A stretch of 34,675 nucleotides of DNA from contig PMZI01000013.1 in assembly GCA_003170475.1 (NCBI GenBank), positions 1 to 34,675 on the forward strand, given 5' to 3'. The position numbers and the translations under genes were made by a program. Numbering within the stretch: the first letter of the stretch is position 1; every line of letters begins with the position of its first letter. Shown in pieces: positions 1,934 to 20,565 of this stretch. Source of the DNA: Ignavibacteriota bacterium (GTDB taxonomy: Bacteria > Bacteroidota > Ignavibacteria > UBA10030). The notes under the pieces are model-generated. The model had not been told where the DNA came from, searched no databases, and was given only the letters and a program-made list of their open reading frames with translations.

Positions 1934-3208
1934 ATGCATTTCACACTCTCAACGAAACCCCTCCTGGGGAGCGCTGTCGCAGTTATTCTCTTGGCGGTAT
2001 TCATTTGGTACGCTCTTGTCCCCTCCTCCAAATCGAAAGAGGGTCTCGAGCATTCTGACTCGACCAATGTCACGAGGGTTTCGGGGTCAAGTCCAAGCGA
2101 TGTAGTGTTTCCAGTTGAAGTCGCTGTTGCGCGCCGCGGTGATTTGGTCAAGAGGCTTAGCACAACAGGCATCATCCGTGCAAATCGGGAGGTGGAAATC
2201 GTGTCTCGAACTGCTGGGGAGATTATCTTCGTTGGTGCTCAAAACGGAGACTATGTAAAGCTAGGCGATGTGCTCGTGAAGCTGGATGATCGGGAGTACA
2301 AGCTTGCGTATGCAAGGGCTTCTGCTGGACTACTCTCCGCACAAATCGAATACAGAACTCTCAGCACGTCGCCCTTTCTTGCAAGCCCAGACTCGATTGA
2401 CATGAAGCAGAAGAAGGAAGAAGTTCAACGAAAACTGCGAGATGCTGACCAACGTTTCATAGAAGGCGCGATCAGCGAGGAGAACTTTGCGCGATTGAAA
2501 AGGGACTATGAAACAGAGCTCGCAGTCTACAATGCACAACGAAGTGATGTAGTTGCGACAAAAAGCGGTCTGAGCCAAGCAATCGAGGCATACGAACGAT
2601 CAAAGTTGGACCTCGAGTCGACTCAGATCAAAGCTCCGTTTGCCGGCCATGTTGCTGATTGCGATCTCTCGACCGGAAAACGCGTGGCCCAGCAACAAGT
2701 ATTACTTAAGATCGTAGATGTATCGCGATTATTGGTGGATGTTGAAGTGCTCGAAAGCGAGATTGGCAAAGTTCAAATCGGACGAAAAGCAGAAGTAAAT
2801 GTCAACGCGTATCCAAATGATAAATTCGTGGGAACCGTATTTCTCATCAATCCGGTTGTTGATGCAAAATCAAAGACAGTTAAGGTGACTGTGCAATTGA
2901 GCGTCACTCGCCGCCGCAGCAGTCACGATTCACCACGCCTGAGACCGGGCATGTTTGCGACCGTCAAGATAGAGACTGAGATACTGAAAGACTGTTTGCT
3001 GGTGCCAAAGGAGGCTCTGCTTGTTCGGGATCAGCGCGCATTAGTGTTTGTTGCTCAATCCGGATTGGCGAAGTGGCAGTATGTGGAAATGGGGGAGGAA
3101 AATGAACGCTACGTCGAGCTGAAGTCTGCAGTCTTACCCGGAGACTCAGTGATAATCAGTGGGCATTACACATTGGCACACGATGCGAAGGTGAGCATCC
3201 TGAGATAG
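1934..3208 (+). CDS. RND efflux periplasmic adaptor (membrane fusion protein, HlyD/AcrA family)
   Basis: A 424-residue adaptor that would bridge an inner-membrane RND pump to an outer-membrane channel. Residues 9-30 form one N-terminal hydrophobic segment (signal anchor). Residues 85-120 are the first half of the lipoyl/barrel-sandwich domain (GEIIFVGAQNGDYVKLGDVL). A charged helical hairpin follows at about 122-235 (MKQKKEEVQRKLRDADQRF...). The second lipoyl half is IKAPFAGHVADCDLSTGKRV, followed by the beta-barrel and membrane-proximal domains (LRPGMFATVKIET). Length and order are usual for the family. The block has two RND pumps (11660 and 17389) but only this adaptor, about 8.5 kb upstream of the first pump, which is an unusual separation. 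No TolC-like partner is in the window. The ribosome site is weak (AAAGG). Confidence 0.9.
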   Translation: MHFTLSTKPLLGSAVAVILLAVFIWYALVPSSKSKEGLEHSDSTNVTRVSGSSPSDVVFPVEVAVARRGDLVKRLSTTGIIRANREVEIVSRTAGEIIFVGAQNGDYVKLGDVLVKLDDREYKLAYARASAGLLSAQIEYRTLSTSPFLASPDSIDMKQKKEEVQRKLRDADQRFIEGAISEENFARLKRDYETELAVYNAQRSDVVATKSGLSQAIEAYERSKLDLESTQIKAPFAGHVADCDLSTGKRVAQQQVLLKIVDVSRLLVDVEVLESEIGKVQIGRKAEVNVNAYPNDKFVGTVFLINPVVDAKSKTVKVTVQLSVTRRRSSHDSPRLRPGMFATVKIETEILKDCLLVPKEALLVRDQRALVFVAQSGLAKWQYVEMGEENERYVELKSAVLPGDSVIISGHYTLAHDAKVSILR

Positions 3209-3271
3209 CTATCTGGTGTAGCCCGTTGTCAGAGTGGAGTTATTCGACAAAATGGTTACAGGATTGAAACG

Positions 3272-3616
3272 ATGGATATCTCAGAAATAGTGGACTTGAT
3301 AGAACGGGATCCAGCCAGATTTGGAACGACAGGCGAGGTGGCAGATTATTTTGGGATCTCATCAGAAACGCTGCGAAGAGAATTCTTCCGACGAATGCGG
3401 TTTCACCTTCATGAGTTTATTGCGAAGAAGAGGATTGAGAAGATGAAGCACTTGCTGTTGAAGACAGATAAGCGATGCTTCGAAATCTGTTTTGAAGTGG
3501 GATTCAAACGCGAAGATACGGCTGCAAAAGTGTTCAAGCGATTGGCTGGACAAACAATGGAAGAATATCGGAAGACGTGTTCTAGTGTTCTTGCGACAAA
3601 GCAAAAATCGCATTAG
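3272..3616 (+). CDS. single-domain AraC-type helix-turn-helix regulator
   Basis: A 114-residue protein made only of an AraC/XylS-type DNA-binding domain. Two helix-turn-helix units are visible: TTGEVADYFGISSETLRREF at about residues 19-38 and CFEICFEVGFKREDTAAKVF at about 71-90. The second is followed by KRLAGQTMEEYRK, the usual family ending in which F/Y-x-K-R-x-x-G-x-T/S-P-x-x-Y-R closes the domain. There is no sensor or receiver domain, so any signal must come from a partner or from expression level. It follows the membrane-fusion gene by 63 bases and is probably co-transcribed. It is the only dedicated transcription factor inside the block, so it may control the peptide/propeller genes downstream. 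That role is inferred. Confidence 0.8.
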   Translation: MDISEIVDLIERDPARFGTTGEVADYFGISSETLRREFFRRMRFHLHEFIAKKRIEKMKHLLLKTDKRCFEICFEVGFKREDTAAKVFKRLAGQTMEEYRKTCSSVLATKQKSH

Positions 3617-4380: not shown

Positions 4381-4971
4381 ATGAAGACGCAACTCGTCGG
4401 TACAAGGCGGACTCCTGGGAAACTGAGCTCAAGTTTCGTTGTAAAGCTTCTCGCAATAGTTAACGTCATGCTATTCATTACGATCGCTACCCTGGCCTAT
4501 GATCGATATAGACAGGGCCAACATACGGACAGGCATAGTTTTGTCCAAGCCGGCGTGATCTTCCCTCGTACTGCAATAAGAGACGATCGCTACTGGAGCA
4601 TGGCAGAAGCAAATCCTTACGACCTCCTGGTGAATGTTTTTTTGAGCGATTCCAGCTTCGCAGGCTTTGAGAACCACGTTGATGAGTTTAAGGATGCGTT
4701 CAAAGAGCTTGAGGGGGGACAACTACTTCTCGTCATAGGTGAGAGAGCCCTCGACTTGCCATCTGCACGCAGTGGTATTGGTCGAAATACCGATCTCTTC
4801 GTGCTCTCCCATTGTGATGAATCCACTTGGAGGACGCTGGGGTTAAGGAGTGAGGGCGTGGTCATTGTGAATGGGCGGACCGGAAGAGTCTTGGAGTCAT
4901 TCCCCTATATCTTGAATTCATTTGTCCTTCGGGATGAATTGAAACGACTACTTCGGATAAATCATAGCTAG
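4381..4971 (+). CDS. membrane-anchored thioredoxin-like protein without CxxC (MauD/TlpA-like topology)
   Basis: A 196-residue protein with one N-terminal membrane segment (about residues 20-40, VVKLLAIVNVMLFITIATLA) and a periplasmic domain. That domain alternates strands and helices in thioredoxin order: a strand YDLLVNVFLSD, a helix FENHVDEFKDAFKEL, a strand GQLLLVIGE, a segment TDLFVLSHCDESTWRTLGL, and the closing pair GVVIVNGRTGRVLESF. The usual CxxC redox site is absent; only one Cys is visible. The ATG at 4381 has AAGGA about eight bases upstream and is preferred over the adjacent TTG. The gene lies six bases before a propeller lipoprotein. MauD of the methylamine operon has the same anchor-plus-thioredoxin layout and works with MauE. 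A MauE-like gene lies downstream, so a related role is plausible, but without the CxxC it cannot act as a normal thiol oxidoreductase. Confidence 0.6.
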   Translation: MKTQLVGTRRTPGKLSSSFVVKLLAIVNVMLFITIATLAYDRYRQGQHTDRHSFVQAGVIFPRTAIRDDRYWSMAEANPYDLLVNVFLSDSSFAGFENHVDEFKDAFKELEGGQLLLVIGERALDLPSARSGIGRNTDLFVLSHCDESTWRTLGLRSEGVVIVNGRTGRVLESFPYILNSFVLRDELKRLLRINHS

Positions 4972-4976
4972 AGGCG

Positions 4977-6035
4977 ATGATGCCACCTTATCGAATAGCG
5001 ATCTTGATTATCGCAATGCTGCTTGCTTGTGGGTGTAGAAAAGCTTCTTCTTCGAAACTCGAGGCTTATCATTTGTCAAGCCTCATTGGCGCAGCATCGA
5101 AGAGTGTCGTCGACATGGAAAGCGTGAGAATCGAACCATGTTCAGTCAAAGTTATGGCAGGCGGAGATTCGCTTTCGCCGACAAAAAGCAAGACGGAAAT
5201 GTTCTTGGCGTCCGCCTCCAGTTCTTGTGTCAGAGGAACTCAGTTATTGATTTGTGACCGGTTGAATGACTGTATCTTTGTAGCAGACTCAGAAGGAACG
5301 ATCCTACGGAAGATTGGTCGTCACGGCAAAGGCCCCGGTGAATTCATCGGGCCGGTTCACATTGCATGCAATACGAACTTTTGCTTTGTGTATGATCTCG
5401 GCAACGGACGAATCCAGATTCTCGACCGAGAATTCGATTACGTGAGTTCAATACCAGCGGTCTACAATTTTCTTTCGGGATGTCTTGCCGCAAGCCGAGA
5501 TCAAGTGTACATACATGGAAGTTACGCTGATACATTACTATTAAAGAGGTATTCGTCGATAAGTCCATTCGATCTTGTATCTGTCAGCATTCCACTGCTT
5601 GTGCCGAGAACTGAGAGATCACAGGCGTACAACAGCGTGAAGTTCTCAGCGAACGAAGACGGCTGGCTTTGCATTGGTTACACCGGGTTGCCCTATCTCT
5701 TTGTATTTGATCCTCAAGGAATTCAGAGGTCGACGATTGAACTACAAGGTAAGGGAGTAGAACAACTAAAGGAACATCCAAACGGCCTCAAGGCGTCTGG
5801 AGCAATGATGAAGATCTTCATCGCTGGGATTTCTGTCTTCCAAGATGGTAGCGTAGTTTTCTCGGACGGCCATCGGATATTTGTCCTGGAAAACAGTAAC
5901 GGAACCTATCGACTCAAGCGAGTGTTGCGGCCCGGCATCGGCGAAAACGTTATACGTCACATCTGTCTAGACGAGCGCCGGGGACGCGTTTTCCTTACAA
6001 CGGATGTCTCGGTATCAGAACTGGATCTGAAGTAG
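4977..6035 (+). CDS. six-bladed beta-propeller lipoprotein
   Basis: A 352-residue protein. The start LLACGC within residues 14-20 is a lipoprotein signal followed by KASSSK, so it is probably anchored in the outer membrane or periplasm. The body has NHL-like blades: DRLNDCIFVADSEGTILRKI, then GRHGKGPGEFIGPVHI, then NGRIQILDREFDYVSSI. The GKGPGEF loop is the hallmark of the Bacteroidota six-bladed propeller family (DUF5128-like). The function of that family is not established; the fold normally binds proteins, peptides or glycans on its top face. Two in-frame ATG codons (4977 and 4980) follow AGAGG, so either may be used. It is one of four paralogues in the window (9876, 15048 and broken 16272) and stands directly before the cysteine-rich peptide gene, which suggests the peptide or its processing as a partner. 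Confidence 0.85.
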   Translation: MMPPYRIAILIIAMLLACGCRKASSSKLEAYHLSSLIGAASKSVVDMESVRIEPCSVKVMAGGDSLSPTKSKTEMFLASASSSCVRGTQLLICDRLNDCIFVADSEGTILRKIGRHGKGPGEFIGPVHIACNTNFCFVYDLGNGRIQILDREFDYVSSIPAVYNFLSGCLAASRDQVYIHGSYADTLLLKRYSSISPFDLVSVSIPLLVPRTERSQAYNSVKFSANEDGWLCIGYTGLPYLFVFDPQGIQRSTIELQGKGVEQLKEHPNGLKASGAMMKIFIAGISVFQDGSVVFSDGHRIFVLENSNGTYRLKRVLRPGIGENVIRHICLDERRGRVFLTTDVSVSELDLK

Positions 6036-6065
6036 CCAGCTTGCGTATTCTCACACACTTAAATG

Positions 6066-6071
6066 AAGGGA
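6066..6071 (+). promoter_or_regulatory. ribosome binding site choosing the start of the Cys-rich peptide
   Basis: AAGGGA lies nine bases before the ATG at 6081. The earlier in-frame ATG at 6063 overlaps this site and has only CACTTAA upstream, so 6081 is the better start. It also gives a compact signal peptide beginning MKRKHG. Confidence 0.6.
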
Positions 6072-6080
6072 ACGATTCGT

Positions 6081-6323
6081 ATGAAAAGAAAACATGGAAT
6101 TGTCACGGCATGTGCTTTGTTGCTTGCCCAGACGTGTGTTCTTGTGATTCTTTTGACCCAGCCCGCGTTTGCAGATAGTGCATTTTGTGCGGCGAGGTGC
6201 CCCGGTGGCTGCTCGGTTCTCGGATGCAGTGAGTCGGGACATGGTTGCTATGTTACTGGTGGGTGCCATTGCTGGTGTTTCTGTGGCGACTATCTATCGG
6301 ATGACTATTGCCCCGTTGAGTAA
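6081..6323 (+). CDS. secreted cysteine-rich small peptide
   Basis: An 80-residue precursor. A basic n-region (MKRKHG), a long hydrophobic core and PAFA followed by D give a clear signal-peptidase I site. The mature part is about 49 residues and contains ten Cys, with the pattern C-x3-C-x3-C-x4-C-x6-C-x5-C-x-C-x-C-x-C-x8-C, including the dense run CHCWCFCG. There is one Trp. Such a peptide could form up to five disulfides, bind metal, or be a modified or bioactive peptide. I recognise no family. It sits 27 bases after a propeller lipoprotein and 379 bases before a MauE-like gene. MauE in the methylamine system supports formation of the disulfide-rich small subunit, so a disulfide-rich product fits. 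The two-Trp quinone cofactor of that subunit is excluded here because only one Trp exists. Role unknown. Confidence 0.7.
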   Translation: MKRKHGIVTACALLLAQTCVLVILLTQPAFADSAFCAARCPGGCSVLGCSESGHGCYVTGGCHCWCFCGDYLSDDYCPVE

Positions 6324-6702
6324 TCTCATCTTGTGGGAATGACCGACCCAGTCTGCAGGGATGTGAAGGCGCTGAGACGTTTGCGAAAGTCAAGAGGGAA
6401 CCCGCCGTTCCAACGGTATGCTGATGATGTCGGATATTGAGGACATCGCTAAATGTGCAGTTGGGGGGCTATGGTAATGAACTGATCATGCGGGCTAAAT
6501 CGTCGGCGGTGAGGAACTCTATGTACCTTTGAGGCGGACCCGTCAGTCCAAAAAGCACAAAGAGTTAAATTGTGAGATTATGCCATGTGATGCCACTTCT
6601 GCATCGTAGGTTCGGAAGTCAGAAAGCGGTACGGAATGTTGTCTGTTCTCCTCGGCTTTGTCGATGAAAAGCAATGAAAAGTAAGAATCTAGCAGACGGG
6701 GG
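6324..6702 (+). other. 379-base gap between peptide and MauE-like genes
   Basis: No supported gene. A 33-codon frame starting at 6338 has no signal peptide and no clear ribosome site. No terminator-like hairpin with a T run was seen, so read-through from the peptide gene into the MauE-like gene is possible. Confidence 0.4.
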
Positions 6703-7173
6703 ATGAAGTTGGAAGCCAACACAAGCTCGTTCACACGGAGCCAGAAGCGAGTTTTGACCGTGCGCCTTTTGGTGGGGGGCGTTATGCTCTTTTCCGGCTT
6801 GTCAAAAGCGTTGTCTCCCGCCGCGGGGTCGGTCTTCCTTTCGCAACTTGGCATTCCAGCAACTTTGAACGTGAGCCTTATTTATTTCGTCATTTTTTTG
6901 GAGTTGTTTTTGGGTGCATGCTGCATGTTGGGAATTTTTCTTCGAATTGCTAGCATTGCCATCGCGGGAACGCTGATTGTTTTCGCATGTGCAATCCTGC
7001 TCGCCTTGTTGATGGGAATCACCGGTTCCTGTGGTTGCTTTGGGAATGTGATCACGAGTGAGGTAGGCGTTCTGGCAATACTTAGAAATCTGGTCGTTGC
7101 CGCATTCGCGTTGTACCTTGCCGGCAGCAACAATAATAGACTCTGTTTGCAAGCTGCCATAGATAGATTGTAG
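6703..7173 (+). CDS. MauE/DoxX-like membrane protein
   Basis: A 156-residue protein with four membrane segments (about residues 19-36, 57-78, 82-107 and 120-140). The motif GSCGCFG at 108-114 lies at the end of the third segment. It matches the MauE family, where a CGCFG motif is typical, and C73-C74 form a second Cys pair in the membrane. MauE acts with thioredoxin-like MauD in maturation of the disulfide-rich small subunit of methylamine dehydrogenase. MauE-like proteins elsewhere are treated as membrane thiol-redox partners, related in layout to DoxX and VKOR-type proteins. The start segment LLVGGVMLFSGLSKAL is the usual family opening. Here it stands between a ten-Cys secreted peptide and a membrane-anchored thioredoxin-like protein, so thiol oxidation or delivery for that peptide is the simplest reading (inference). 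Confidence 0.8.
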   Translation: MKLEANTSSFTRSQKRVLTVRLLVGGVMLFSGLSKALSPAAGSVFLSQLGIPATLNVSLIYFVIFLELFLGACCMLGIFLRIASIAIAGTLIVFACAILLALLMGITGSCGCFGNVITSEVGVLAILRNLVVAAFALYLAGSNNNRLCLQAAIDRL

Positions 7174-7251
7174 CTTACTTCGTGACACCCCGCTCCCTGA
7201 TCGAGGAGTCTTGGCTCATTCACCTTTCTGCAATATTCATTCTCTCTTCGT

Positions 7252-7866
7252 GTGAAAAATATCTCGTTGATTGTTTCCCATTCGATTATGGTGCTAGCAT
7301 TGGTTTTTGGGGCGCTTCACTATGCGGACGAGAGGGCGCAAAACTCAAAAATGAAAGAAGCGATGATGTTTGTTGTCGAAAAAGCCGATCGCATGGATCT
7401 AGATCTCAAGGTGAAGTCAATGACAATGGGAAAAAGGATCCTCCCCTTGAGAAAAGAAGCTGGGACATTCTCGCCGAATACGTATAGCAAATCTTTTGTG
7501 GTTTTTTCGGCGCCTTTGGCTGAACTTCTTGCCAGAAACATCCGCGCAATTGACTACTACTCCATGCTGGTATCGAGAGATAGCACAGTAGGCGCACAAA
7601 AGATGCTGATCATAATTCGGACGACTGATCGGCTATATGCTAAAAAGATATCCAAAGACGTATTGCATGGCCAAAGTTATCTTTGCGAGCGAGACGTCTC
7701 GAGTATGTTCTTGAAGACTTGTCCAGATTCATTAATGATTTGCATGGTAATATCAAATCGCGGAGAGTGTGTGTTCTCTTATGTTGTAGATGCTGATGAT
7801 TTTTCAAAAGACTTGTTGTGTGCGCGTATTGTCATGAGCATCCTTGGCGCAGAGAAGAGGTTCTAG
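7252..7866 (+). CDS. membrane-anchored thioredoxin-like protein, second copy of the type
   Basis: A 204-residue protein starting at GTG (next in-frame start too far in). Residues 4-22 are a membrane anchor. The periplasmic part has a thioredoxin-like order: SFVVFSAPLAELLARNIRAI, a strand KMLIIIRT, and the late pair SLMICMVISNRGECVFSYVV, which corresponds to the strand-turn-strand at the end of TlpA-like proteins. Five Cys are present (in YLCERD, KTCPDS, MICMV, GECVF and LLCAR), but none forms CxxC. It resembles the 4381 gene in layout but not in visible sequence. Its stop codon shares one base with the GTG start of the lysozyme-like gene (TAGTG), so the two are translationally coupled. Family assignment is moderate; activity is unknown. 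Confidence 0.5.
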   Translation: MKNISLIVSHSIMVLALVFGALHYADERAQNSKMKEAMMFVVEKADRMDLDLKVKSMTMGKRILPLRKEAGTFSPNTYSKSFVVFSAPLAELLARNIRAIDYYSMLVSRDSTVGAQKMLIIIRTTDRLYAKKISKDVLHGQSYLCERDVSSMFLKTCPDSLMICMVISNRGECVFSYVVDADDFSKDLLCARIVMSILGAEKRF

Positions 7867-8561
7867 TGGAACGCGCTGCCAAAGATGAGCACGAAACCAA
7901 CTACGAGCGTGAAAAGAAAGGAAGTTTCATTTGGTGGGCTTCGCGTAGGTTGCAGCTAATTGTAATAACAATGGGAATTCTTTTGGCGGCGGGAATTGCT
8001 TTTGCGCTTGTATTCAAAGCAGAACATCCGTCGGATGAAACAATTTGTCGCCTGTTCGTGGAGAAGGCTGATACAATCGACAGCGTTTGTGTGTCACTAG
8101 GAATCAAATCGCGCTTATATGTGAGTGTAGTTTACGGCGAGCTAGCAGCCAATTATGACTTCCTAGATTCGTTCGACGAAGTGCGAGCACGGTTGGGATT
8201 AGATCCTTCCGTTGGATTCGCCCAGATCAAGGTCTCGACTGCTATGTGGTTAGAAGCGAGACTAGGCAACGTCAGAGAATTGAGTGTTAGTGGCTCACGT
8301 AGAGAGTTAGTCGCCAGATTATTGAATGAAAACTACAACATACTCTATTCCGCGTTCTATGTAAAGCTAATTCGGGAGCGCCTGCAAACAGATGGCACCG
8401 AAGAACCATCGGTTGAATTGATAGGTTCCTATTATGCTAGAGGAATAGACGGGCGCCCCCAACGGTTGTCGACTAAGTACTCTAATCCTGTGGGCAGATT
8501 TGCCGGACGTTTTTTTTCATCTGGTCAATTGCTAAAGATCTTTCCTCGCAACGCGCCATGA
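7866..8561 (+). CDS. membrane-anchored lysozyme-like / lytic transglycosylase-like protein
   Basis: 231 residues from a GTG that overlaps the upstream stop. Residues 30-50 form one membrane segment after a charged cytoplasmic start (topology N-in). The outer part contains VSVVYGELAANYDFLDSF followed by a loop and SVGFAQIKVSTAMWLEARL (about residues 115-133). The GFAQI-x-x-STA string resembles the G-x-x-QI-x-PSTA motif of lysozyme/SLT-type glycan-cleaving enzymes, and E92 would be the catalytic Glu. The Ala-Leu-ESS motif of classical SLT is not visible, so assignment is by motif only. The next gene is a peptidoglycan amidase, and the pair could cut both glycan and peptide bonds. Possible roles are making room in the wall for an envelope complex, or lytic activity. 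Confidence 0.5.
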   Translation: MERAAKDEHETNYEREKKGSFIWWASRRLQLIVITMGILLAAGIAFALVFKAEHPSDETICRLFVEKADTIDSVCVSLGIKSRLYVSVVYGELAANYDFLDSFDEVRARLGLDPSVGFAQIKVSTAMWLEARLGNVRELSVSGSRRELVARLLNENYNILYSAFYVKLIRERLQTDGTEEPSVELIGSYYARGIDGRPQRLSTKYSNPVGRFAGRFFSSGQLLKIFPRNAP

Positions 8562-8589
8562 TCGCGAAGAATGGTCATGGGCGTAAGAT

Positions 8590-9666
8590 TTGACAAGGCA
8601 AGGTGTAAAGACGCAACGAAGTGAACCACTCCGTGTTTTTCAATTGCGAAAGAACAAGAAGACTCTGCTTATCCTATTACTCCCAATTCTGTTTTGGGGG
8701 TGTAAAGGCGGACCGAGTATAGACTCGCCTAAAGAGCTCAAAGACAATGCGATGTTTAAGGCCACTATGGAGAGGTACTCGCATTTCTTGGATTCGCGAA
8801 GCATCTTTATTGATCCGGGTCATGGAGGAGAACTAGATGGGGCAAGGTTTGAAGCAATATTAAATCTCAAAGTGGCCCGGTATCTTCGAAGCTACTTTGA
8901 GATAGCAGGAGCGCGAACGACCATGTCAAGAGAGGGTGATTGGCAAGTGGCACTAAGTCAGCGCGTAGCTGAATCTGCCAGATCAGGAGCTGAATTGTTT
9001 ATCTCAATTCACCACAATGCATCATCAGACAAGGAACAACTATATTGCTCAACTTGGTATCATTCTAGGGAAGGCCAAGAAGGTTATGATCCGCGAAGCC
9101 ACGATATCGCCAGATATATTCAAAGGGATCTTGCGAGTTCCCTTCGGTTGCCTGGAAGCTTGGTGTCATTTGATGGTACGTTATCCGACTATGAGATATA
9201 TGAAGGAGTTGGATTCTCAGTCCTCAGGGACCAATCTATTCCTTCTGTTTTGGTTGAGTGCACATTCGTAACAAATGAGAAAGCGGCTGCAAGTTTGGGA
9301 AAGGAAGAATTCAACAGAATTGAGGCTTGGGGAATCTTCACGGGTGTGGCAAGGTATTTTGAGGATGGGGAGCCAAGCATGATTCTTGATGTAGACACAA
9401 CTTGCATGAACACGAAAGGGTATATAACAATAAGACTTTCGGGGCTAGTGGACGTTGACGAGTCGACGGTACAGTTCATGATCGATTCGCAACCAGTGAT
9501 GCCGAGGGATGTCCATTACTTAGCATCCAAGAGAGACAATCTACGCGCGATGCTGAGCCTGAAGAAAGGTTTGCGGTGGGGGCGACACGATCTAGAGATA
9601 TGGGCGCGAAATGTAAACGGAAATCATTGCACTCCACTGAAAAAACCCTTCTGGATCAAACCCTAG
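8590..9666 (+). CDS. N-acetylmuramoyl-L-alanine amidase (Amidase_3), lipoprotein, with C-terminal beta domain
   Basis: 358 residues. The zinc amidase core is clear: IDPGHGG (His78), E88 in ARFEAILNLK, SIHHNAS (His141/142) and LVECTF carrying the late Glu. All ligands and the catalytic Glu of Amidase_3 enzymes are present, so it should cut the bond between MurNAc and L-Ala. The start is uncertain. TTG at 8590 gives a 37-residue lead, while TTG at 8644 gives a compact lipoprotein signal (KNKKTLLILLLPILFWGC). Neither has a good ribosome site. After about residue 260 there is an extra beta-rich domain (YITIRLSGLVDVDESTVQFM) of unknown role, perhaps for targeting. It follows the lysozyme-like gene by 28 bases in the same direction. 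Confidence 0.9.
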   Translation: MTRQGVKTQRSEPLRVFQLRKNKKTLLILLLPILFWGCKGGPSIDSPKELKDNAMFKATMERYSHFLDSRSIFIDPGHGGELDGARFEAILNLKVARYLRSYFEIAGARTTMSREGDWQVALSQRVAESARSGAELFISIHHNASSDKEQLYCSTWYHSREGQEGYDPRSHDIARYIQRDLASSLRLPGSLVSFDGTLSDYEIYEGVGFSVLRDQSIPSVLVECTFVTNEKAAASLGKEEFNRIEAWGIFTGVARYFEDGEPSMILDVDTTCMNTKGYITIRLSGLVDVDESTVQFMIDSQPVMPRDVHYLASKRDNLRAMLSLKKGLRWGRHDLEIWARNVNGNHCTPLKKPFWIKP

Positions 9667-9875: not shown

Positions 9876-11003
9876 ATGAGAAGACTAGTAATAATACCCG
9901 TGTTAATCCTGGCTCTCCCAATTGGAATTGCAATAACCGGTTTTCATCATTTGCTTTTGAGGGATTTGAGCAATCAACAAATGCACATTGATATCGATTG
10001 CGTCCGGTTGACGTCCACTCTTGGTTCACGCGACAAGGTGTCTGAGACAGACAGTTACCTCTTCGGAAATGTCGATATCGCATATGTCCCGCCAGGAAGG
10101 CTGTACCTCCTGGATCATGTTTACAACTGTGTGCGCGTTCTCTCCGCGGCAACTGGCAAGGAGTTGTTTCAATTTGGACGCAAGGGAAATGGCCCAGGTG
10201 AGTTCAATACAGTTAATCGCATTCGGTACGAGGAGGGAAAAGGGCTGTTGGTCCGTGACCCCGTTCTTAAACGGATCACGATATTCAACGAGAATGGAAC
10301 CTTCAAAAGAACAATCACTACTAGAAACATGATCGACGACGCAGTGCTGGTGAACGACTCCTCGTTCGTGGCAAGTTGCTTTCTTTTGAATCGTGGATTC
10401 AAACCATTGCGAGTGATTTCTTTGAGTACCGGCATGGAGCTGACTCAATTTGGAACAATCGAAGAGCCTCGCGAAGGATTGATTTCACAAATTGAGCGAA
10501 TTCATGGACATCTGGTGAATGATTCGTTCGCGGGTGGCTCAATGACGAGAATCGTCCTAGATGCCACCCACCGCCATGTGTTTATGGTTCAAAGCAATCC
10601 ATATAAACTCACCCGATATCGCATCAACGATGGTGAAGGGACAACGCTGTCTGTTCCGGTGCCGTTTTCAACCGAAGCCAACTTCACTATCGAAATGATC
10701 AAGGAGGGGCAAGGAATAAGAAAAACTTATGGACCGTCGGGACATGCATTGGCACCAATAGTTCGGGATAACGAATTGATCGTGCCGATCTTCAGTAAAG
10801 AGGGAGACGTGAACTACTTAGATGTTTATCAGCCAGACGGGAAACTCATACATAGGCTGGCTCTTCCAGCTCTTCCAAAAAAAAGTATCGCTATTGCAGC
10901 GTCGTTCAATGGAATCCGCGAGATGTTTCTTCTGGTGAGCGATTTCAGGGACTTGAATTGGATTGAGAAGTATACTATCGATCTTCACAAGGTGCAAAGG
11001 TGA
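9876..11003 (+). CDS. six-bladed beta-propeller protein, membrane-anchored or secreted
   Basis: 375 residues. Residues 4-25 are hydrophobic (LVIIPVLILALPIGIAITGF) without a clear cleavage site or lipobox Cys, so it may be an anchored periplasmic protein. The first blades read RLYLLDHVYNCVRVLSAATG and FGRKGNGPGEFNTVNRI. The GNGPGEF loop matches the other propellers in the window. Later blades follow the same strand pattern (KRITIFNENGTFKRTITT; YLDVYQPDGKLIHRLALP). Specific binding partner unknown. The gene is separated from the amidase by 209 bases and from the RND pump by 656 bases, so it may have its own promoter. A GGAG sits upstream of the ATG (TATGGAGTACGATG). Confidence 0.85.
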   Translation: MRRLVIIPVLILALPIGIAITGFHHLLLRDLSNQQMHIDIDCVRLTSTLGSRDKVSETDSYLFGNVDIAYVPPGRLYLLDHVYNCVRVLSAATGKELFQFGRKGNGPGEFNTVNRIRYEEGKGLLVRDPVLKRITIFNENGTFKRTITTRNMIDDAVLVNDSSFVASCFLLNRGFKPLRVISLSTGMELTQFGTIEEPREGLISQIERIHGHLVNDSFAGGSMTRIVLDATHRHVFMVQSNPYKLTRYRINDGEGTTLSVPVPFSTEANFTIEMIKEGQGIRKTYGPSGHALAPIVRDNELIVPIFSKEGDVNYLDVYQPDGKLIHRLALPALPKKSIAIAASFNGIREMFLLVSDFRDLNWIEKYTIDLHKVQR

Positions 11004-11659: not shown

Positions 11660-14600
11660 ATGTCTCTTCCCTCCGTCTCCATTCGTCGTCCCGTCACCAC
11701 GCTGATGTTCTTCATCGGGGTGGTGTTTCTTGGCACAATTGGGTTCAGCAATCTCGCGGTTGATTTCCTACCAACCATCAAGATTCCCAAGCTTACCGTT
11801 CAAACGTCTCATCCCAACGTCTCGCCGGAAGAGATCGAAAACACCGTCACGCAGCCGATCGAAGCGGCGTTGAGCACTGTCACCGGCTCAAAGAAAGTGT
11901 CATCGGTCTCGCGCGAGGGTCTGTCGATTATTACGGCAGAGTTCTTCTGGGGAACAAATATGGACTTTGCGATGCTTGAAGTGAGGGAGAAGCTTGACCA
12001 GCTTAGAGCAACGCTTCCAAAGGAATCAGGCCGGCCGACGATACTGCGGGTTGACCCTGCAGTTGAGCCGATTATGACGATTGCGCTGTCGCAAAAGAGG
12101 GAGGCTCCGTCTGGGCAAACTGAACGTAAGGTTGACCTCACCCCATCCCCTCGCCAGCAATCAGCTGTTTCCTTAGGCGGGCAGGTCTCCTACAGGGAGT
12201 CTGGGGGCGAGGCGACCCTTACACCGACTGCAGGCCTTGTGGAGTTGAAAGAGACGGCCCGGGCTCTGATCAAGAGACGTATTGAGCAAGTCGCCGGCGT
12301 GGCTCAGGTTTCTGTATTGGGTGGCGTTGAACGAGAGATTCAAGTGGAAATCGACACTAGGAAGGCCACGGCGGTTGGTGTGACGCTTGACCAAGTGTCT
12401 CAAGCTCTCGCGAGCGCAAATCTGAACTTGCCTGGCGGAACGATCAAACGAGGCCTTTTCAGGTATTCACTTCGCACCCTTGGAGAGTTCAGCGGCCCAG
12501 ATCAGATCAAGTCGGTCGTTGTCACTCGGTTATCGAGCGGCCGCGCTGTTACGATTGGCGATATTGGCATCGTGCTCGATACATTCAAAGAGCGAACAGG
12601 CATCACACGCTACAACGGTGAAGAGATCATCGCCCTCCAAGTCAGGAAGGAGGCGGGATCAAACACAGTTGAAGTCTCAAATCGCGTCAATAACACACTG
12701 GGCCAACTTCGGAGTGAGTATCCGAACCTCCGGCTTGATGTGATCAACGACCAAGCGGAGTTCATTTCTCAGTCGATCGGAGATGTGGAGCAGGCGATTG
12801 TCATTGGCGCAATACTGGCATTTCTCGTACTCTTTTTCTTCCTCCGGAACGCGAAGTATCCCGTAATCATTGGCATTGTGACACCAATCTCCATTCTAGC
12901 CACATTCTTAGCGATGTACTTCCTGAAGATAAACCTAAACATCATATCGCTGTCGGGGCTTGCGTTGGGGATCGGAATGTTGGGAGACAACGCGATTGTA
13001 GTCGTCGAAAACGTCACGAGACTTCGTGAGAGCGGCTTGAGTATTCGGGATGCGGCGCTTCAGGGGGCAGAGGAGATAAACCTCGCTGTGACAGCGTCTA
13101 CGTTGACGAATGTCGCAATATTTCTTCCAATCATATTTGTCGAAGGGGTTGCGTCACAGCTGTTTATCGATATGGGCGTGACGATGACGATATCGCTCCT
13201 AGTGTCGCTTCTCGTCGCTGCCACGCTTGTGCCGATGCTCGTCTCCCGCGAAATTCGAAGCGATGGATCGAGATCTTCGACAAAGAAGATCAGTGATGAT
13301 GGACGTACGTCGTCGGACAAATTCTCTCAGAAATTGAAATATTGGATCAGCTATCCACTCCGAATTCTGGTGGCCGCCGTGCTGGGTCTCTTCGATTCAC
13401 TTTCTTCATTGCTGCGAAAGGCTCTCAGGCTGTTGGCGCCGTCATTCCTTCGGACGGTTGATAAGGTTAGTACTGTAAGCAACGAATGGCTCGAAGCTTT
13501 TCTGGAGTGGGGCTTGGGTCACCGGTTTGCTGTTGTTGGTGGAACATTGGCAGTTTTTGCTGCATCGGTCTGTGTAGCTCTTTTCATCCCATCAGAGCCT
13601 GCGCCAGACATCGATCAGAGCAGGTTCACCGTGCAAGTCGATATGCCCAAGGGGACGACTTTAGAGGGTACGTCATCATTCATAAGTCGAATGGAGGGGG
13701 ACATTGTAAGTCTTCCCGGAGTGAAAGGTGTTTACTCATCGATCGGAATGCCAGATGAACAGACGGTGCAGACCATCACGGAAGCATCAATGGAGATGGC
13801 AACGCTCGAGATTAGAGCGAGAGTGGGCACGGAATCGCTTATCCATTCCGTTCGGAGCTATCTGGAATCGCAGCGTTCTGCCGCCGCGGGAGTCGAGTTT
13901 GCTCTAAAGAAGAGGGGAACGACATTCGAGCAAATTTTGCGTCCTGAACAAAACGACATCAAGATCTGGGTATCCGGGCGTGACCCGCAGGTTGCGACTC
14001 GAATTGCGGATCAGCTGGCAGATCAAATTCGAAAAGTCAAAGGCCTTGTCGACCTGCGCACCTCGATGCAAAAAGGAAGTCCCGAGTTTCAGATCGTGGT
14101 GGATCGCGAGCGCGCAAGCCGGTATGGACTTTCGGTGCAGACTGTCGCTCAACACCTGGCCCAGTTTGTTCGTGGAAAGGAGGCAACATATCTGAGCGAC
14201 TTCGATCGAAAGATTGCCATTCGCGTCCAAGCGACGGCGGATCAGAGGTCAAATATCGACGACATACTCTCTGCATCCATTCAGGTTGGAGAAAACTCGG
14301 TTCCGGTTCGAGAGCTTGTTCATTGGCAGAGGACGGAAGGTTATGCGGAGGTTTGGCGTGAGAATCGTCAGCGTGCTGTCCTGATGACTGCGAATGTGTC
14401 CGGGAGCGCTGTCGGTACGGTGGTGGATGATATCCAGGAACAGATCAAGAGACTGAATATTCCTGCGGGGTACACGATTTCAGTAGGGGGAGAAAATGAG
14501 GAGATCAGGGAGTCATTCCGAAGCCTCTTTCTTATTATCCTCCTTTCACTATTCCTGGTGTACATGATTTTGGCCGCGGAGTATGAGTCAACGCTGTATC

Positions 14601-15031
14601 CGTTGGTGATCATTTTGACGAGTCCACTGGCATTCATAGGGGCGATCTTTGCGATGGTGGTGGCCGGTCAGGCATATAATGTGATGTCACTCATAGGGAT
14701 CGTTATCATGATTGGAGCTGTGGACAATGACGCAGTGATCGCCGTCGACATCATCACTGAACTCAGACGCAAGGGAGTCAGATTGAATGAGGCAGTCATA
14801 CAGGGAATGAAGTTGCGCCTCAGGCCCATTTTGATGACGACTGCCACCACTGTGCTCGGCGTGATACCGCTCGTGTTCGAGTTTGGAACCGGTTCGGAGC
14901 TTGTAAGAGCTTTGACCATACCGCTTGTTGGCGGTCTCTTTGCGTCCACAGTCTTCACGATCGTTGCAATCCCCATCGTGTATACGTACATCGATCGCTG
15001 GGCGATAGGGAAGAAACACATCGATCTGTAA
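11660..15031 (+). CDS. RND-family efflux pump permease (AcrB/MdtB-type), with in-frame repeat insert
   Basis: 1123 residues, longer than the usual 1020-1060. The start SIRRPVTTLMFFIGVVFLG is the first membrane helix, followed by porter-domain hallmarks (VSPEEIENTVTQPIEAAL; REIQVEIDTRKATAVGVTL) and a second half beginning near FLEWGLGHRFAVVGGTLAVF. The TM4 motif is GMLGDNAIVVVEN, with D443 kept and the second Asp changed to N444. The TM10 motif is GAVDNDAVIAVD, where the Lys of AcrB is Asn (N1023). The proton relay therefore differs from AcrB, as in some other RND branches. Residues of about 145-192 are an insertion of about 48 residues encoded by palindromic repeat DNA (see 12136-12219). The central loop after TM6 is also long and charged. 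The gene lies 17 bases before a propeller gene. Confidence 0.93.
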   Translation: MSLPSVSIRRPVTTLMFFIGVVFLGTIGFSNLAVDFLPTIKIPKLTVQTSHPNVSPEEIENTVTQPIEAALSTVTGSKKVSSVSREGLSIITAEFFWGTNMDFAMLEVREKLDQLRATLPKESGRPTILRVDPAVEPIMTIALSQKREAPSGQTERKVDLTPSPRQQSAVSLGGQVSYRESGGEATLTPTAGLVELKETARALIKRRIEQVAGVAQVSVLGGVEREIQVEIDTRKATAVGVTLDQVSQALASANLNLPGGTIKRGLFRYSLRTLGEFSGPDQIKSVVVTRLSSGRAVTIGDIGIVLDTFKERTGITRYNGEEIIALQVRKEAGSNTVEVSNRVNNTLGQLRSEYPNLRLDVINDQAEFISQSIGDVEQAIVIGAILAFLVLFFFLRNAKYPVIIGIVTPISILATFLAMYFLKINLNIISLSGLALGIGMLGDNAIVVVENVTRLRESGLSIRDAALQGAEEINLAVTASTLTNVAIFLPIIFVEGVASQLFIDMGVTMTISLLVSLLVAATLVPMLVSREIRSDGSRSSTKKISDDGRTSSDKFSQKLKYWISYPLRILVAAVLGLFDSLSSLLRKALRLLAPSFLRTVDKVSTVSNEWLEAFLEWGLGHRFAVVGGTLAVFAASVCVALFIPSEPAPDIDQSRFTVQVDMPKGTTLEGTSSFISRMEGDIVSLPGVKGVYSSIGMPDEQTVQTITEASMEMATLEIRARVGTESLIHSVRSYLESQRSAAAGVEFALKKRGTTFEQILRPEQNDIKIWVSGRDPQVATRIADQLADQIRKVKGLVDLRTSMQKGSPEFQIVVDRERASRYGLSVQTVAQHLAQFVRGKEATYLSDFDRKIAIRVQATADQRSNIDDILSASIQVGENSVPVRELVHWQRTEGYAEVWRENRQRAVLMTANVSGSAVGTVVDDIQEQIKRLNIPAGYTISVGGENEEIRESFRSLFLIILLSLFLVYMILAAEYESTLYPLVIILTSPLAFIGAIFAMVVAGQAYNVMSLIGIVIMIGAVDNDAVIAVDIITELRRKGVRLNEAVIQGMKLRLRPILMTTATTVLGVIPLVFEFGTGSELVRALTIPLVGGLFASTVFTIVAIPIVYTYIDRWAIGKKHIDL
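12136..12219 (+). repeat. palindromic (REP/RPE-like) element inserted in frame inside the RND gene
   Basis: The DNA runs CCTCACCCCATCCCCTCGCC, then a short spacer, then a small hairpin TCTCC-TACA-GGGAG, then GGGGGCGAGGCGACCC. CCTCGCC at 12149-12155 is the exact reverse complement of GGCGAGG at 12206-12212. CTCACCCC(A/G)TCCC...CTACAGGGAG is the style of dispersed palindromic repeats that normally lie between genes. Here it keeps the frame and adds a Ser/Gly/Gln-rich, low-complexity piece between the IMTIALS strand and the VELKETARALIKRRIEQ helix, where RND pumps normally have a short turn. Confidence 0.55.
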
Positions 15032-15047: not shown

Positions 15048-16073
15048 GTGTACAGTCACATCATCGTATTATCCGCAATGCTGGCCGTGGCAGGATCCTT
15101 CTTCTCCCATAGTTCCTCAAGAGACGCACGTGCCATTCGGCGTCCGGTTGACGGGTACGAGCCGGTAAAGAAAGAGGTACGAGTGCAGATAAGGGAAATC
15201 CTGTCGATTGGTGTGGAGGACGGGGATCCAAATTACTTGTTCGCGAAGCCCACGAATGTCGTAGTTGATGGAAAAGGGAACATCTATGTCATTGAGATGT
15301 TTGCCAAGCAGGTGCGAAAATACGACAAGTCAGGCAAGTATCTTGTGACAATCGGGCGGACGGGGAAAGGTCCAGGGGAGTACATGATGCCTTCGTTTGG
15401 AGCAGTCGACAGAGCAGACAACTTCTATCTGTTTGACTACACAACCATGCGGCTAAGCACGTTCCAACCGGATGGGACTTTTGAGGGGTCTTTCGTACCC
15501 GGTTTTCTCGCAGGAGGAATATGCGTCAGTCCCAAGGGTGAGATTGTCGTCTGCGGCATTCAGGATGGTAAGATGTTGCACCAGTTTGATTCGAAAGGGA
15601 AGTTGATTTCATCTTTTGGAGAGCCATGGAAAGCTTCCACGGACCCACGCATGGGAGGATTCAATTTTGCTTTTGCATGCCTCGGGCCCGATACGTGTGT
15701 CTACTGTTGTCCCGTGACCGATCCAAACGAAATTCTGAAGTGCGACCTTCGTGCAAAGACCGTCTCAAGTGTCGCGCACGATGGACCTGACTATCGGCCC
15801 TTGACAATGTCAGGAAAGGAACCATCGGGATCGATGACCCGCGGGATGGTAGTGTTGAGAGATGGAACAATTGTGGTCTGTGTCTCATTTGCCAAAGACA
15901 ACAAGTCTGTAGAGCGTCTCGATTTCTATTCAAAAGAAGGGAGATATCTCGTTTCTTCGAGTGAGATCCATGGCACGCCTCGGTGTGTCGATCGGGAATG
16001 TGGAATGTATGTTGTAACGAGCGAGCCATTCCCGCGAGTGGTGAAGTACTCAGTGAATCTGCAAGGATCTTGA
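15048..16073 (+). CDS. six-bladed beta-propeller protein, secreted
   Basis: 341 residues from a GTG with a good ribosome site. Residues 1-22 are a signal peptide (HIIVLSAMLAVAGSFF). Blades follow: NVVVDGKGNIYVIEMFAKQV, then IGRTGKGPGEYMMPSFGAVD, then TMRLSTFQPDGTFEGSF. GKGPGEY is the family loop. The rest repeats the same strand pattern to the end (ERLDFYSKEGRYLVSSSEIH; MYVVTSEPFPRVVKYSVNLQ). It begins 17 bases after the first RND pump and is probably in the same transcript, followed by a frameshifted paralogue and then the second pump. Tight linkage with the pumps suggests the propellers serve the same envelope process. No specific ligand can be read from the sequence. Confidence 0.87.
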   Translation: MYSHIIVLSAMLAVAGSFFSHSSSRDARAIRRPVDGYEPVKKEVRVQIREILSIGVEDGDPNYLFAKPTNVVVDGKGNIYVIEMFAKQVRKYDKSGKYLVTIGRTGKGPGEYMMPSFGAVDRADNFYLFDYTTMRLSTFQPDGTFEGSFVPGFLAGGICVSPKGEIVVCGIQDGKMLHQFDSKGKLISSFGEPWKASTDPRMGGFNFAFACLGPDTCVYCCPVTDPNEILKCDLRAKTVSSVAHDGPDYRPLTMSGKEPSGSMTRGMVVLRDGTIVVCVSFAKDNKSVERLDFYSKEGRYLVSSSEIHGTPRCVDRECGMYVVTSEPFPRVVKYSVNLQGS

Positions 16074-16271
16074 CGAGTCGTTTCAGGGACATTCGAGCTG
16101 CGTTATCTCCAGGCCATCACCCCGATGTCAGATGTGATAATCGGGGCAGGGAGCAGTGTACGCGGCGGATAAAAGTCAACTTTTTCCTTCTGAGAGCATC
16201 TACCAGTACAACTGCGTTCTCGCGTGGTTGAAAAAAAGAGCATCTCTTCAAACTGTCAGAGGGAGGAATCT

Positions 16272-17209
16272 ATGACCAAGAGAAGGATCTTCTGCGCACT
16301 GGTAGCGTCTGCGCTTGTCATTGCATGCTTCTCGCCCGCAAGCGGGCGTCAGAAACAACTGAAATGGGAGATCGTCATCGGAACAGACTCCAGCGATGAT
16401 CAGCCATCGGCGTTGTATCTTCCAAAGGAAGTGATGGCCGACAAGAGGGGAGATATCTATGTGCTTCAGAAAGAGTCGATCGAGAAGTTTAACAGTCATG
16501 GTGGCCACGTTCTCTCTGTTGCTTCAAAAAAAAATGAAAGGGGCCCGGTGAGTTTGCCGGCCCGACATCTCTCGCACAGGACGGAGACGGCTCTTTGTAT
16601 GTGTGGGACGAATTCCAAACGAGAGTTTCGAGGCTCGATCCGTCCGGGAAATTCATCAGCTCCTTCAAGGTGGGCTCGCTCTACAAACAAATGGCAATGT
16701 GGGGAAAGGGGGAGTTCATCTTCCTCGGATTGTCACAGGATCACATACTGCATGTCTACTCAGGGAAGGGCAAGGAACTTAGGAGTTTCGGGGATCCGTT
16801 TGAACCCGTGCCCGACGTACCTGCGTTTGCGACAAGCCCCATGGAATGGTTTGTCCAAGGCGACACCGTATGGGTAGCTAATCCCTTGCAGTATGAGATC
16901 AGGCAGTATGTAGGAGAGAAGCTCGTTTCGACGATAAAGGGACCAGACAAATTTCCCCGACCGATGGTTCGCGAAAGAAACGGCAGTGTCGGGGTGGGGA
17001 TTTCAAAAGGTATCTTCGGTCTCGCTGCTTGTGGCGGGCGACTCATTGCATTGGTGGCATTGAATGCCGCAACTTTGGATGTCTATGAAACGAAGAGTTG
17101 TCAGCTTCTATCACGTATCGAGTGCCGCCCGAGATTGAGGTCCTCTGACAACTCCGGCAGGCTGTACTTTGTCGATGAGGGCAAAGTCAGGATCGGACGG
17201 CTCGAATGA
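16272..17209 (+). pseudogene. six-bladed beta-propeller gene broken by a single-base frameshift
   Basis: The ATG at 16272 has a strong GGGAGGA site and a signal peptide (RRIFCALVASALVIACF). The first frame runs through GDIYVLQKESIEKFNSHGG and then SKKNERG. At 16541 the family loop GPGEFAGPTSLAQDGDGSLY continues in another frame and runs cleanly to the stop at 17209. Joining the frames needs one extra base within GAAAGGGG at 16536-16543 (for example a fifth G, giving NERGPGEF, or a fourth A, giving NEKGPGEF). Insertion in the nearby A9 run would create TGA, so it is not the site. The rest is intact, so the break is recent, or is an assembly error, or is read through by slippage. Full product would be about 312 residues. 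It stands between a propeller and the second pump. Confidence 0.85.
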
Positions 17210-20300: not shown

Positions 20301-20565
20301 GGATTACATCTCAAAGAAGGTCACGGGTGATGACAAGACGACGGATGTGCTTGTGGATGCTGCCTCAGTACGAATTCGACCTGTCATGATGACCACGTTG
20401 GCGACGGTAGGCGGTTTGGTTCCGCTTCTGCTCATGGGGGAACGGACAAGCATTTGGTATTCGTTGTCTCTCGGAACCATCGGCGGTTTGGTATCCTCGA
20501 CGTTGCTGACGCTCGTGGTGGTCCCCGTTGTGTATGCGAGCATCTTGAGGGTCAAAATGGACTGA
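17389..20565 (+). CDS. RND-family efflux pump permease, second copy
   Basis: 1058 residues, normal length. The opening is FFQRFLHRPVAVSMFYGALV, and the first porter motif is TSPETVEMFITSPIEEIANT. TM4 carries GRLVDDSIVVLENV with both Asp (D406, D407). TM10 carries GIVVTNSIVLVDYI with Thr (T965) at the usual Lys position. The last helices are TLATVGGLVPLLLMGERTSI and STLLTLVVVPVVYASIL. It differs strongly from the pump at 11660, which has only one of the two TM4 Asp, so the two could form a mixed trimer as MdtB and MdtC do, or be separate pumps sharing the adaptor at 1934. The last gene of the + strand block, it converges on a response regulator 62 bases further on. Confidence 0.93.
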   Translation: MNASFFQRFLHRPVAVSMFYGALVVGGVFAFLRLPLELAPTKEFPRLSVNTTWGSTSPETVEMFITSPIEEIANTVSGVRKVSSTSIEGASTVDIEFEQKIDMNFARLELSEKLAAFAETLPPGANAPSIQRYVPKDLRDLQGFLSFSLSGNRPPHELRKYAEEKILPFLLSVRGIANVQVLGGQNRELQIELDPDKVLARGLQPDELSSKLRELQFHAPVGVLEKNQGRIYIAVRNDAVTVQELEQFVVASTSGGVPIRIRDLGKIQDGLSEARSFYRINGKPTVTILIDKEPNTNTLSLADAVFERLEALRKDFPVGYSLIKESDKSLQMRKELGKLYQEILISLLCIFVILLFFLRNLRAPLVILSSILFSVAGTFVLFWLFGVGLNLLTLAGLVLGFGRLVDDSIVVLENVNRHVNAGSGDRFSRVARSVSEIALPVVASTLTTVGALLPLSFLPQDLKPYFLDFGIAVGVSLMMSLLVSFTLIPTVAAHRDVVSVSFRFLDRMGSRVLNLYQSLLHHALRHKKLVIVVTLWLFGLPVWLLPDKIDSESRSASFYNATFGSESYKLIKPYVDYLFGGTSHLFFAKVTKGEVWDFDNQTYLMVYVGFQQGTEIERYNQIVGEVEKLVLVEKNGIAKVTARVQPDYAMVKVDIADSAANTALPFELKNQLIVYAAQTGGATISVSGFGPGFYSGGESAPSFYVKVFGYNYNKVKDIAEEFRQRIERNPRVAEVDIDRSFGRWNKTFELVVTVDRGAIAHHGLSVIEVIRAVRSFTRGAIEQSQLDIAGERVPYTIKFSGYKDFSTSDLRQATIANQQGDKVRLGDIIGIEERRVPSQIEREDQQYLRLISFEYKGPYRFGDRYVDATIKAMPLPSGYLFDRSSSFFWLSESSQMSLLWIAVFALVIVFMITASLYESFLKPFVIILSVPFSLIGLFLAFYLADTPFGRGGYAAIVLLVGIVVTNSIVLVDYISKKVTGDDKTTDVLVDAASVRIRPVMMTTLATVGGLVPLLLMGERTSIWYSLSLGTIGGLVSSTLLTLVVVPVVYASILRVKMD

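Follow-up and report, generated by a model that had tools for sequence, protein, structure and literature searches.

A secreted ten-cysteine peptide encoded with a MauE-family protein, propeller lipoproteins and a two-RND pump: a candidate peptide maturation and export locus in an Ignavibacteriota bacterium

The stretch of DNA described here, hereafter the window, comprises 34,675 nucleotides (positions 1 to 34,675 of the forward strand of contig PMZI01000013.1, assembly GCA_003170475.1) from an Ignavibacteriota bacterium (Bacteroidota; Ignavibacteria; UBA10030) whose genome amounts to 4.08 Mb in 85 contigs; below, the prefixes L, G and C denote loci, genomes and contigs, the window being G000:C39. 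Its plus strand carries, from about 1934 to 20565, a unit that encodes a secreted cysteine-rich peptide, a MauE-family membrane protein, propeller proteins, candidate wall hydrolases and an RND pump with one adaptor and two permeases, RND1 and RND2 (Table 1). A first-pass annotation of the bare sequence had described a one-strand set of 5.3 kb (4381-9666) around the peptide. The genes are there, and the propeller lipoprotein, the peptide with ten cysteines in 49 residues, the MauE protein with GSCGCFG and the amidase were all recovered on the plus strand, with PF17170, PF07291 and PF01520 matches; the interval was too short, an RND adaptor and an AraC-type regulator lying upstream of it and propeller 2, RND1, propeller 3, a frame-broken propeller 4 and RND2 downstream. 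The adaptor and two-RND pump, which that annotation missed, is the strongest link found. The association of these genes is secure; what follows establishes their presence and linkage, the conservation of cysteine frameworks among the peptides and the existence of the RND subfamily.

Table 1. Genes of the unit, with the evidence for each assignment
Feature	Position	Strand	Evidence
RND membrane-fusion (adaptor) protein	1934..3208	+	TIGR01730 3.6e-53
Short AraC-type helix-turn-helix regulator	3272..3616	+	HTH_18 7.3e-15
Membrane-anchored protein, possibly thioredoxin fold without CxxC	4381..4971	+	no family above cut-off
6-bladed propeller lipoprotein 1	4977..6035	+	PF17170 4.7e-9; lipobox by eye
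Secreted peptide, 80 residues, mature part 49 residues with 10 Cys	6081..6323	+	
MauE-family membrane protein, CGC motif	6703..7173	+	PF07291 9.2e-18; GSCGCFG
Anchored thioredoxin-related protein without CxxC	7252..7866	+	homologue in L159
Anchored lysozyme-like protein	7866..8561	+	GTG start inferred at 7866; relatives in other loci
N-acetylmuramoyl-L-alanine amidase (Amidase_3)	8590..9666	+	PF01520 4.9e-31
6-bladed propeller 2	9876..11003	+	PF17170 2.4e-6
RND permease 1 (RND1), DNDA signature	11660..15031	+	NF033617 4.2e-190, below cut-off
6-bladed propeller 3	15048..16073	+	PF17170 3e-8
Fourth propeller, frame broken	16224..17209	+	ORFs 16224-16877, 16595-17209
RND permease 2 (RND2)	17389..20565	+	NF033617 1.6e-157, below cut-off

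The start codon (ATG) of the window peptide is preceded by AAGGG, and its signal sequence, judged by eye, ends in AFA. At the cysteine frequency of the window's 20 long open reading frames (ORFs), the probability of at least ten cysteines among 49 residues is 1e-10; random sequence of the window's composition gives 7e-6, and a signal-bearing peptide with at least eight cysteines arose in 1 of 60 simulated windows; the cysteine content is beyond chance. Comparable peptides were collected by an author-made rule, fixed early and untrained, which asks for a hydrophobic N-terminal stretch after a positive charge, then at least four cysteines, and less than 40% overlap with ORFs of at least 150 amino acids. 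It yields 67 different candidates with 4-13 cysteines, at least one of which looks spurious (L143:10446-10715); many have only four cysteines and several lack a CxC motif. Eight relatives of the window peptide were scanned and matched no Pfam or NCBIfam family above cut-off.

In some groups of related peptides the cysteine framework is kept in full although other residues have changed: 12/12 between L137 and L190, 10/10 between L187 and L188, 8/8 between L147 and L178, and 6/6 between L111 (the same gene as in L097) and L166; the five eight-cysteine peptides of the window's family keep six columns in an automatic alignment. Mean identity among eleven long-leader peptides falls from 0.40 in the leader to 0.20 in the mature part, and a pair of paralogues in G131 has 53/57 leader residues in common and 6/28 in the mature part. 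Such a fixed delivery part joined to a fast-changing product would be typical of secreted competitive or signalling peptides. Up to three peptides are found per locus (L188, L189). At L077:4224-7289, three paralogous peptides with a near-identical leader and 6, 8 and 12 cysteines, the last of which looks like an internal duplication, are arranged around MauE and a thioredoxin-like partner. The peptides L137:4158-4424, from Deferribacteres bacterium JdFR-76, and L190:15010-15264, from the window's order, have all 12 cysteines and the run CDCPWWEGD in common, a likeness due either to transfer or to old descent. In Chitinophagaceae-like genomes, a short lipoprotein-like ORF with five cysteines stands directly before a long MauE (L138:9626-9874, L140:9612-9860, L144:4464-4712).

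The window MauE scores 65.2 bits against a curated PF07291 cut-off of 27 and has the CxC motif, and CGC is invariant in 12 aligned members. MauE matches occur in 51 of the 61 genomes searched (own, genus, family and order; 73 matches), of which 72, the window included, were taken and one on a 3.2 kb contig (G012:C185) was left out. A same-strand secreted peptide with at least four cysteines lies within 7 kb of 14/72, two of these (L044, L089) being housekeeping loci that look like chance; none lies on the opposite strand. Additional loci came from a phylum-wide search of 395 genomes, whose query was an alignment of peptide-type MauE and whose best hits favour that type, and from named loci. 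When MauE proteins are divided by class, a peptide lies within 3 kb on the same strand of 24/34 with CxC and without DUF1573 or rhodanese neighbours, of 3/59 housekeeping MauE and of 1/14 without CxC, the opposite-strand counts being 2, 0 and 0; some L148 and L137 rows in this comparison are fragments, whereas L036, L141 and L143 are doubtful members of the housekeeping class. For 24/34 vs 3/59, Fisher's test gives 2e-11, which, like the Fisher value below, is rough, the rows being related to each other.

The 119 MauE proteins placed in a maximum-likelihood tree (ORFs of at least 120 amino acids, identical C-termini removed, loci found through RND1 included) fall on two sides, with some placements unsure because of long branches. 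On the side of 48 rows that includes the window (support 97/81), 41 have a same-strand cysteine-rich secreted peptide within 3 kb, compared with 1 of 71 on the other, mostly housekeeping side, and the window MauE groups with that of locus L035 from its own genus (support 100/93). The recurrence in other genomes that the first-pass annotation proposed as a check was therefore found: this MauE branch goes with secreted cysteine-rich peptides, often with propellers, in many genomes and far above controls. The notion that any MauE suffices was rejected, most MauE genes in the relatives sitting in other branches without peptides, and the paralogues in the window's own genome are not of the peptide type (C48, with DUF1573 and rhodanese genes; C14, without CxC). 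In L055, L056, L073 and L082, MauE, a CxxC protein and a peptide of 8-13 cysteines stand in a row. Two contigs of a metagenome-assembled Planctomycetaceae genome (L141, L143) carry a long MauE, a gene matching the DUF1573 model and nine-cysteine secreted peptides, so the theme of MauE with a cysteine-rich peptide apparently extends to a second phylum. In three genomes, a protein of about 600 residues is encoded between MauE and a peptide (L159:8264-10081, L168:3928-5754 and L172:15031-16857); of these the L159 protein was scanned and matches the O-antigen ligase family Wzy_C (4.8e-22).

The link to the pump was approached from the side of RND1. In a search of 16 genomes, five besides its own contained matches at E <= 2e-222, all of them lying 2-8 kb away from a peptide-type MauE, and the other ten gave nothing better than 4.4e-96; at E <= 1e-120, RND1 is matched in 33 of the 391 genomes of the class, its own included. 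The 34 RND1 loci contain a same-strand peptide in 22 cases (opposite strand, 1/34), a propeller in 24, MauE in 17 and an anchored CxxC protein in 19, as opposed to 0/20 for each of the four in control RND loci (Fisher 1.1e-6 for the peptide), mean flanking sequence being 14.0 kb in the controls vs 8.6 kb in the RND1 loci. Ten of the 20 controls come from RND1-carrying genomes and one (L219) matches the thioredoxin model, and the propeller and MauE models were partly seeded or trained on loci that recur among the 34 (window, G041, G131, G313, G089). Five of the 34 (L194-L197 and the window) had previously been seen as peptide loci; among the 29 newly seen (L165-L193), the peptide is present in 17. 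The counts given here leave out L106, L198-L202 and L231-L233, of which L200, L202 and L231-L233 were read individually. Adaptors are common in both sets (26/34 and 18/20), matches to the AraC model lie within 8 kb of the RND gene in 8/34 RND1 loci and 0/20 controls, and two RND permeases are present in 29/34 RND1 loci, the remaining five being at contig ends.

RND1 itself is distinguished by a DNDA-type signature near its C-terminal end, present in 33/33 rows covering this part of the protein (NNDA and DNEA, once each, included), in 0/22 control rows and in none of the RND2 rows. The position corresponds to that of the relay lysine in AcrB; no energetic conclusion is drawn from the signature because several controls also lack a relay lysine. 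Judged by its sequence, RND1 forms a subfamily of its own marked by this signature. MdtABC-type pumps consist of two RND permeases and one adaptor, and the window pump has the same composition; it differs in that RND1 belongs to the DNDA subfamily, goes with peptide genes and stays below the curated cut-offs of the MdtC (414 bits vs 1774) and MdtB (393 vs 1584) models.

The order of genes varies among loci. In L166, from the window's family, adaptor, AraC regulator, six-cysteine peptide, propeller, CxxC protein and RND1 are followed by a second half with AraC regulator, six-cysteine peptide, propeller, MauE and RND2. L180 has adaptor, two regulators, four-cysteine peptide, propeller, CxxC protein, RND1 and RND2, and the common order in family f7 (e.g. 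L168, L175) is peptide, propeller, CxxC protein, RND1, adaptor and RND2, with MauE nearby. The order in L164, whose genome belongs to a more remote member of the phylum, is propeller, MauE, peptide, propeller, signal peptidase S26, an ORF that by eye looks regulator-like, RND, adaptor and RND; its RND is not a strong RND1 match. In L035, peptide, propeller, CxxC protein and MauE stand beside a lipoprotein and a receptor that by eye are, presumably, of the DUF4249-like and TonB types. Related DUF4249-like (by eye) lipoprotein-like proteins adjoin MauE and cysteine-rich peptides at L065:2928-3935 and L035:6786-7787. Directly past RND2 in the window, a LuxR-type response regulator and a histidine kinase are encoded on the minus strand (20628-22499).

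Further components of the unit also have relatives beside the same module. Homologues of the adaptor are found there in L097 (5.5e-120), L161 (2.1e-83) and L070 (2.3e-55), and propeller 1 has relatives in L161 (7.5e-24) and L137 (5.3e-23). The fourth propeller gene, which lies between those of the two RND permeases, is spread over two reading frames; its second piece matches our own propeller model (3.5e-48) and no Pfam family, and the break may reflect real decay or an assembly error. The parallel once drawn between propeller lipoprotein 1 and the large subunit of methylamine dehydrogenase was not upheld: its matches are to PF17170 and NHL propellers, and no methylamine dehydrogenase family was matched by the 20 window proteins scanned with Pfam. 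For the putative lysozyme-like protein (stretch 7887-8561 in searches), the evidence is mixed. Its family matches are sub-threshold (muramidase Tse3 domain, E 0.089; Tse3 in the PDB, E 0.82) and its single-sequence model is of low confidence (pLDDT 44-45), but relatives of it are conserved beside the module in L147 (4.1e-42), L171 and L236, and four members have 51 invariant residues, including E85 and GF.Q. In L236 it is followed by an Amidase_2 protein and in the window by the unrelated Amidase_3; an M23 peptidase occurs in addition in L171, and L172 and L147 have an Amidase_2 and an NlpC/P60 protein, respectively. The proposal that wall hydrolases accompany the module thus extends to L147, L171, L172 and L236, which have enzymes of unrelated folds, as read locus by locus and not counted against controls. 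The presence of different wall enzymes in like places suggests that wall cutting is part of the system's job.

The two anchored proteins that the first-pass annotation took for thioredoxins fared less well as redox-active enzymes, neither having CxxC. The product of 4381-4971 has no significant homologue among the related loci compared; its single-sequence model is of low confidence (pLDDT 44), and with this model as query Foldseek found nothing at E <= 0.001, the best match being a DsbE-like protein at E 0.071. The product of 7252-7866 has a homologue, L159:16185-16793 (2.3e-6), that carries CKPC. Against a profile of 41 anchored CxxC proteins, hhalign probabilities are 3.2 for 4381-4971 and 1.7 for 7252-7866 (0.2-0.6 for four other proteins), and hmmsearch E values are 0.44 and 0.026 (2.4-5.2 for other proteins), which gives no real support for either belonging to the CxxC set. 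Four further anchored proteins without CxxC in the usual place do resemble that set, at E values that come from a small search: L187:6396-7010 (1.2e-4), L188:17912-18529 (0.0025), L147:236-865 (2.4e-4) and L137:5616-6257 (1.7e-8). The window is thus not alone in lacking the redox pair, and such proteins may bind rather than oxidise. Because the local CxxC partner is missing, either the window MauE works with a protein encoded elsewhere or the window copy is partly decayed, and the broken propeller 4 would fit the latter.

Several known systems resemble parts of this arrangement. Methylamine dehydrogenase maturation, also described in PMC7794033, shares with it a MauE membrane protein, an anchored thioredoxin-like partner and a disulfide-rich secreted target; here the target is an unrelated short peptide, and a methylamine dehydrogenase (mau) cluster was rejected, no such family being found among the 20 window proteins scanned with Pfam. 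The same scan revealed no C39 match and no known enzyme that modifies ribosomally synthesized and post-translationally modified peptides (RiPPs). Double-glycine bacteriocins have a parallel in L036 and L051, where MauE and a TlpA-like protein accompany a cysteine-bearing peptide whose leader is, by eye, of the ISGG or NVGG type. Both loci also encode a C39-like protein, assigned in L036 from a match to NHLM_micro_ABC1 that stays below cut-off (5e-17) and in L051 from likeness to the L036 protein. The window peptide has a plain signal sequence and, by eye, no GG leader. In L036 and L051 the peptide (L036:10267-10491, L051:9494-9742) joins a signal-like N-terminus to the GG-type leader and the C39-like protein has about 200 residues, possibly a variant in which the leader is cut in the periplasm. 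NVEALA peptides (PF14055), which the long leaders of some relatives resemble by eye, are a further likeness: in L231, four-cysteine NVEALA-type peptides adjoin PF17170-type propellers, with a CxxC protein some kb off, but no MauE or RND match occurs in its 19.9 kb. Membership in that family was rejected, the window peptide and eight relatives scanned giving no PF14055 match and the window's own genome having 0 matches; the literature search found no paper on NVEALA peptides by that name.

The closest published precedent is in Streptomyces, where three candidate RiPP families predicted by decRiPPter place MauE homologues (in one also MauD) beside precursors with at least eight cysteines, and where a role of MauE in disulfide formation is called speculated (PMC7794033). 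The inference that MauE serves a cysteine-rich peptide is the same; the families differ in their host, are predictions only, and come with no mention of a propeller lipoprotein or RND pump in the parts of that article consulted (PMC7794033). MauE beside cysteine-rich precursors is thus already in print, and the combination with pump and propellers was not found in the literature searched, which mostly excluded subscription papers and preprints and is not proof of absence. The earlier statement that no such system has been described accordingly holds, as far as this search reaches, for the full combination and not for its core.

An unlikely alternative to peptide export is metal handling, in which the peptide would act in the periplasm as a metallothionein or copper buffer while the RND pump exports the metal. 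CxC and CxCxC runs in the window, L137 and L190 peptides agree with it, as does the better match of RND1 to the CusA/CzcA model (6.8e-140, 468 bits, below cut-off) than to those of MdtB, MdtC or AcrB; however, two general multidrug RND models score higher still (634 and 478 bits). Bufferins, which are copper-buffering cysteine peptides, likewise pair a secreted cysteine-rich peptide with a DoxX-like membrane protein, and the window MauE has a weak match, below cut-off (0.0032), to HvfX, which partners copper-binding peptides, but no DUF692-type (MNIO) enzyme is present among the 20 window proteins scanned with Pfam. Moreover, many peptides have four cysteines, several of them without CxC, the strong sequence variation between paralogues is unlike a fixed metal site, and MauE with thioredoxin partners fits thiol oxidation better.

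Just as improbable is that the peptide serves as a sensor or signal which reads the redox state of the envelope or the presence of neighbours and controls a pump with another substrate. Such a role is compatible with the AraC-type regulators encoded both in the window and at several related loci, with the propellers as potential receptors and with the pump loci that have no peptide, but up to three peptides per locus and hypervariable mature parts suit secreted products better. Less credible again is a structural or wall-bound product, with cross-linked peptides joining the cell surface and wall hydrolases serving their insertion: it is favoured by the wall hydrolases, varied in fold, that the window and four other loci encode, and disfavoured by the shortness of the peptides and their strong differences between paralogues of one genome. 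A chance neighbourhood of unrelated envelope genes, to which the gaps of 379, 209 and 656 bp in the window locus and the patchy presence of the locus in its genus might point, is very improbable and is refuted for the family by the MauE-class, RND-control and tree comparisons.

Maturation and export of the peptide appears to fit the gene content best, and a system devoted to making and exporting a small disulfide-rich peptide is given about an even chance of being what the locus encodes. The peptide would leave the cytoplasm through Sec by means of its signal sequence, and MauE with a thioredoxin-like partner would introduce its disulfides in the periplasm, as family knowledge and gene association suggest; this partner is encoded in many related loci and in the window's genome is possibly supplied from elsewhere. 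The propeller lipoproteins may serve to bind or accompany the peptide once it has folded, or to shield the producer, which is a guess. Going by linkage, the tripartite pump of two RND permeases and one adaptor would move the product across the outer membrane. The lysozyme-like protein and the amidase would make local openings in the wall to accommodate the pump or allow passage, and the AraC-type regulator would control the system.

A number of observations weigh against this interpretation. No CxxC thioredoxin is encoded at the window locus, both candidates (4381-4971 and 7252-7866) lacking the motif; peptides with CxC could bind metal instead of forming disulfides; and an outer-membrane channel was not noticed at the window locus, in the course of work that included no search aimed at one. 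Among the 34 RND1 loci, 12 have no peptide. Seven of these have under 3.6 kb of context, and L173, L177, L182, L184 and L193 are peptide-less despite 6-13 kb; L182, L184 and L193 also lack propellers and MauE, and the pump can therefore exist without the peptide. Conversely, G002, G035, G040 and G057 have a peptide-type MauE and no RND1 match at E <= 1e-74, so RND1 is not required everywhere. L180, L181 and L190 have peptide and RND1 with no MauE in the stretch seen, and among six genomes of the genus RND1 occurs only in that of the window. L035 also lacks RND1, with another, non-RND1 pair of RND and adaptor further along the same strand. Variants of the L035, L036/L051 and L055 types therefore indicate that a core of MauE, thioredoxin and peptide combines with different envelope machines.

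The RND-coupled form has a fair chance of deserving a class of its own. Somewhat short of even is the likelihood of the fuller proposal, a new class of secretion system in this phylum and perhaps beyond, in which MauE-driven oxidative folding, propeller lipoproteins and a heteromeric two-RND pump would serve the export of hypervariable disulfide-rich peptides, with wall hydrolases letting the machine through. RND pumps have mostly been studied for drugs and metals, and a pump reserved for a secreted disulfide-rich peptide would be an unusual case; it would also give this MauE branch and the PF17170 propellers a concrete role. The RND1 signature together with the MauE branch would offer a genomic handle for finding many diverse cysteine-rich peptides, which, if the proposal is true, would represent a large unexplored store of competitive or signalling molecules.

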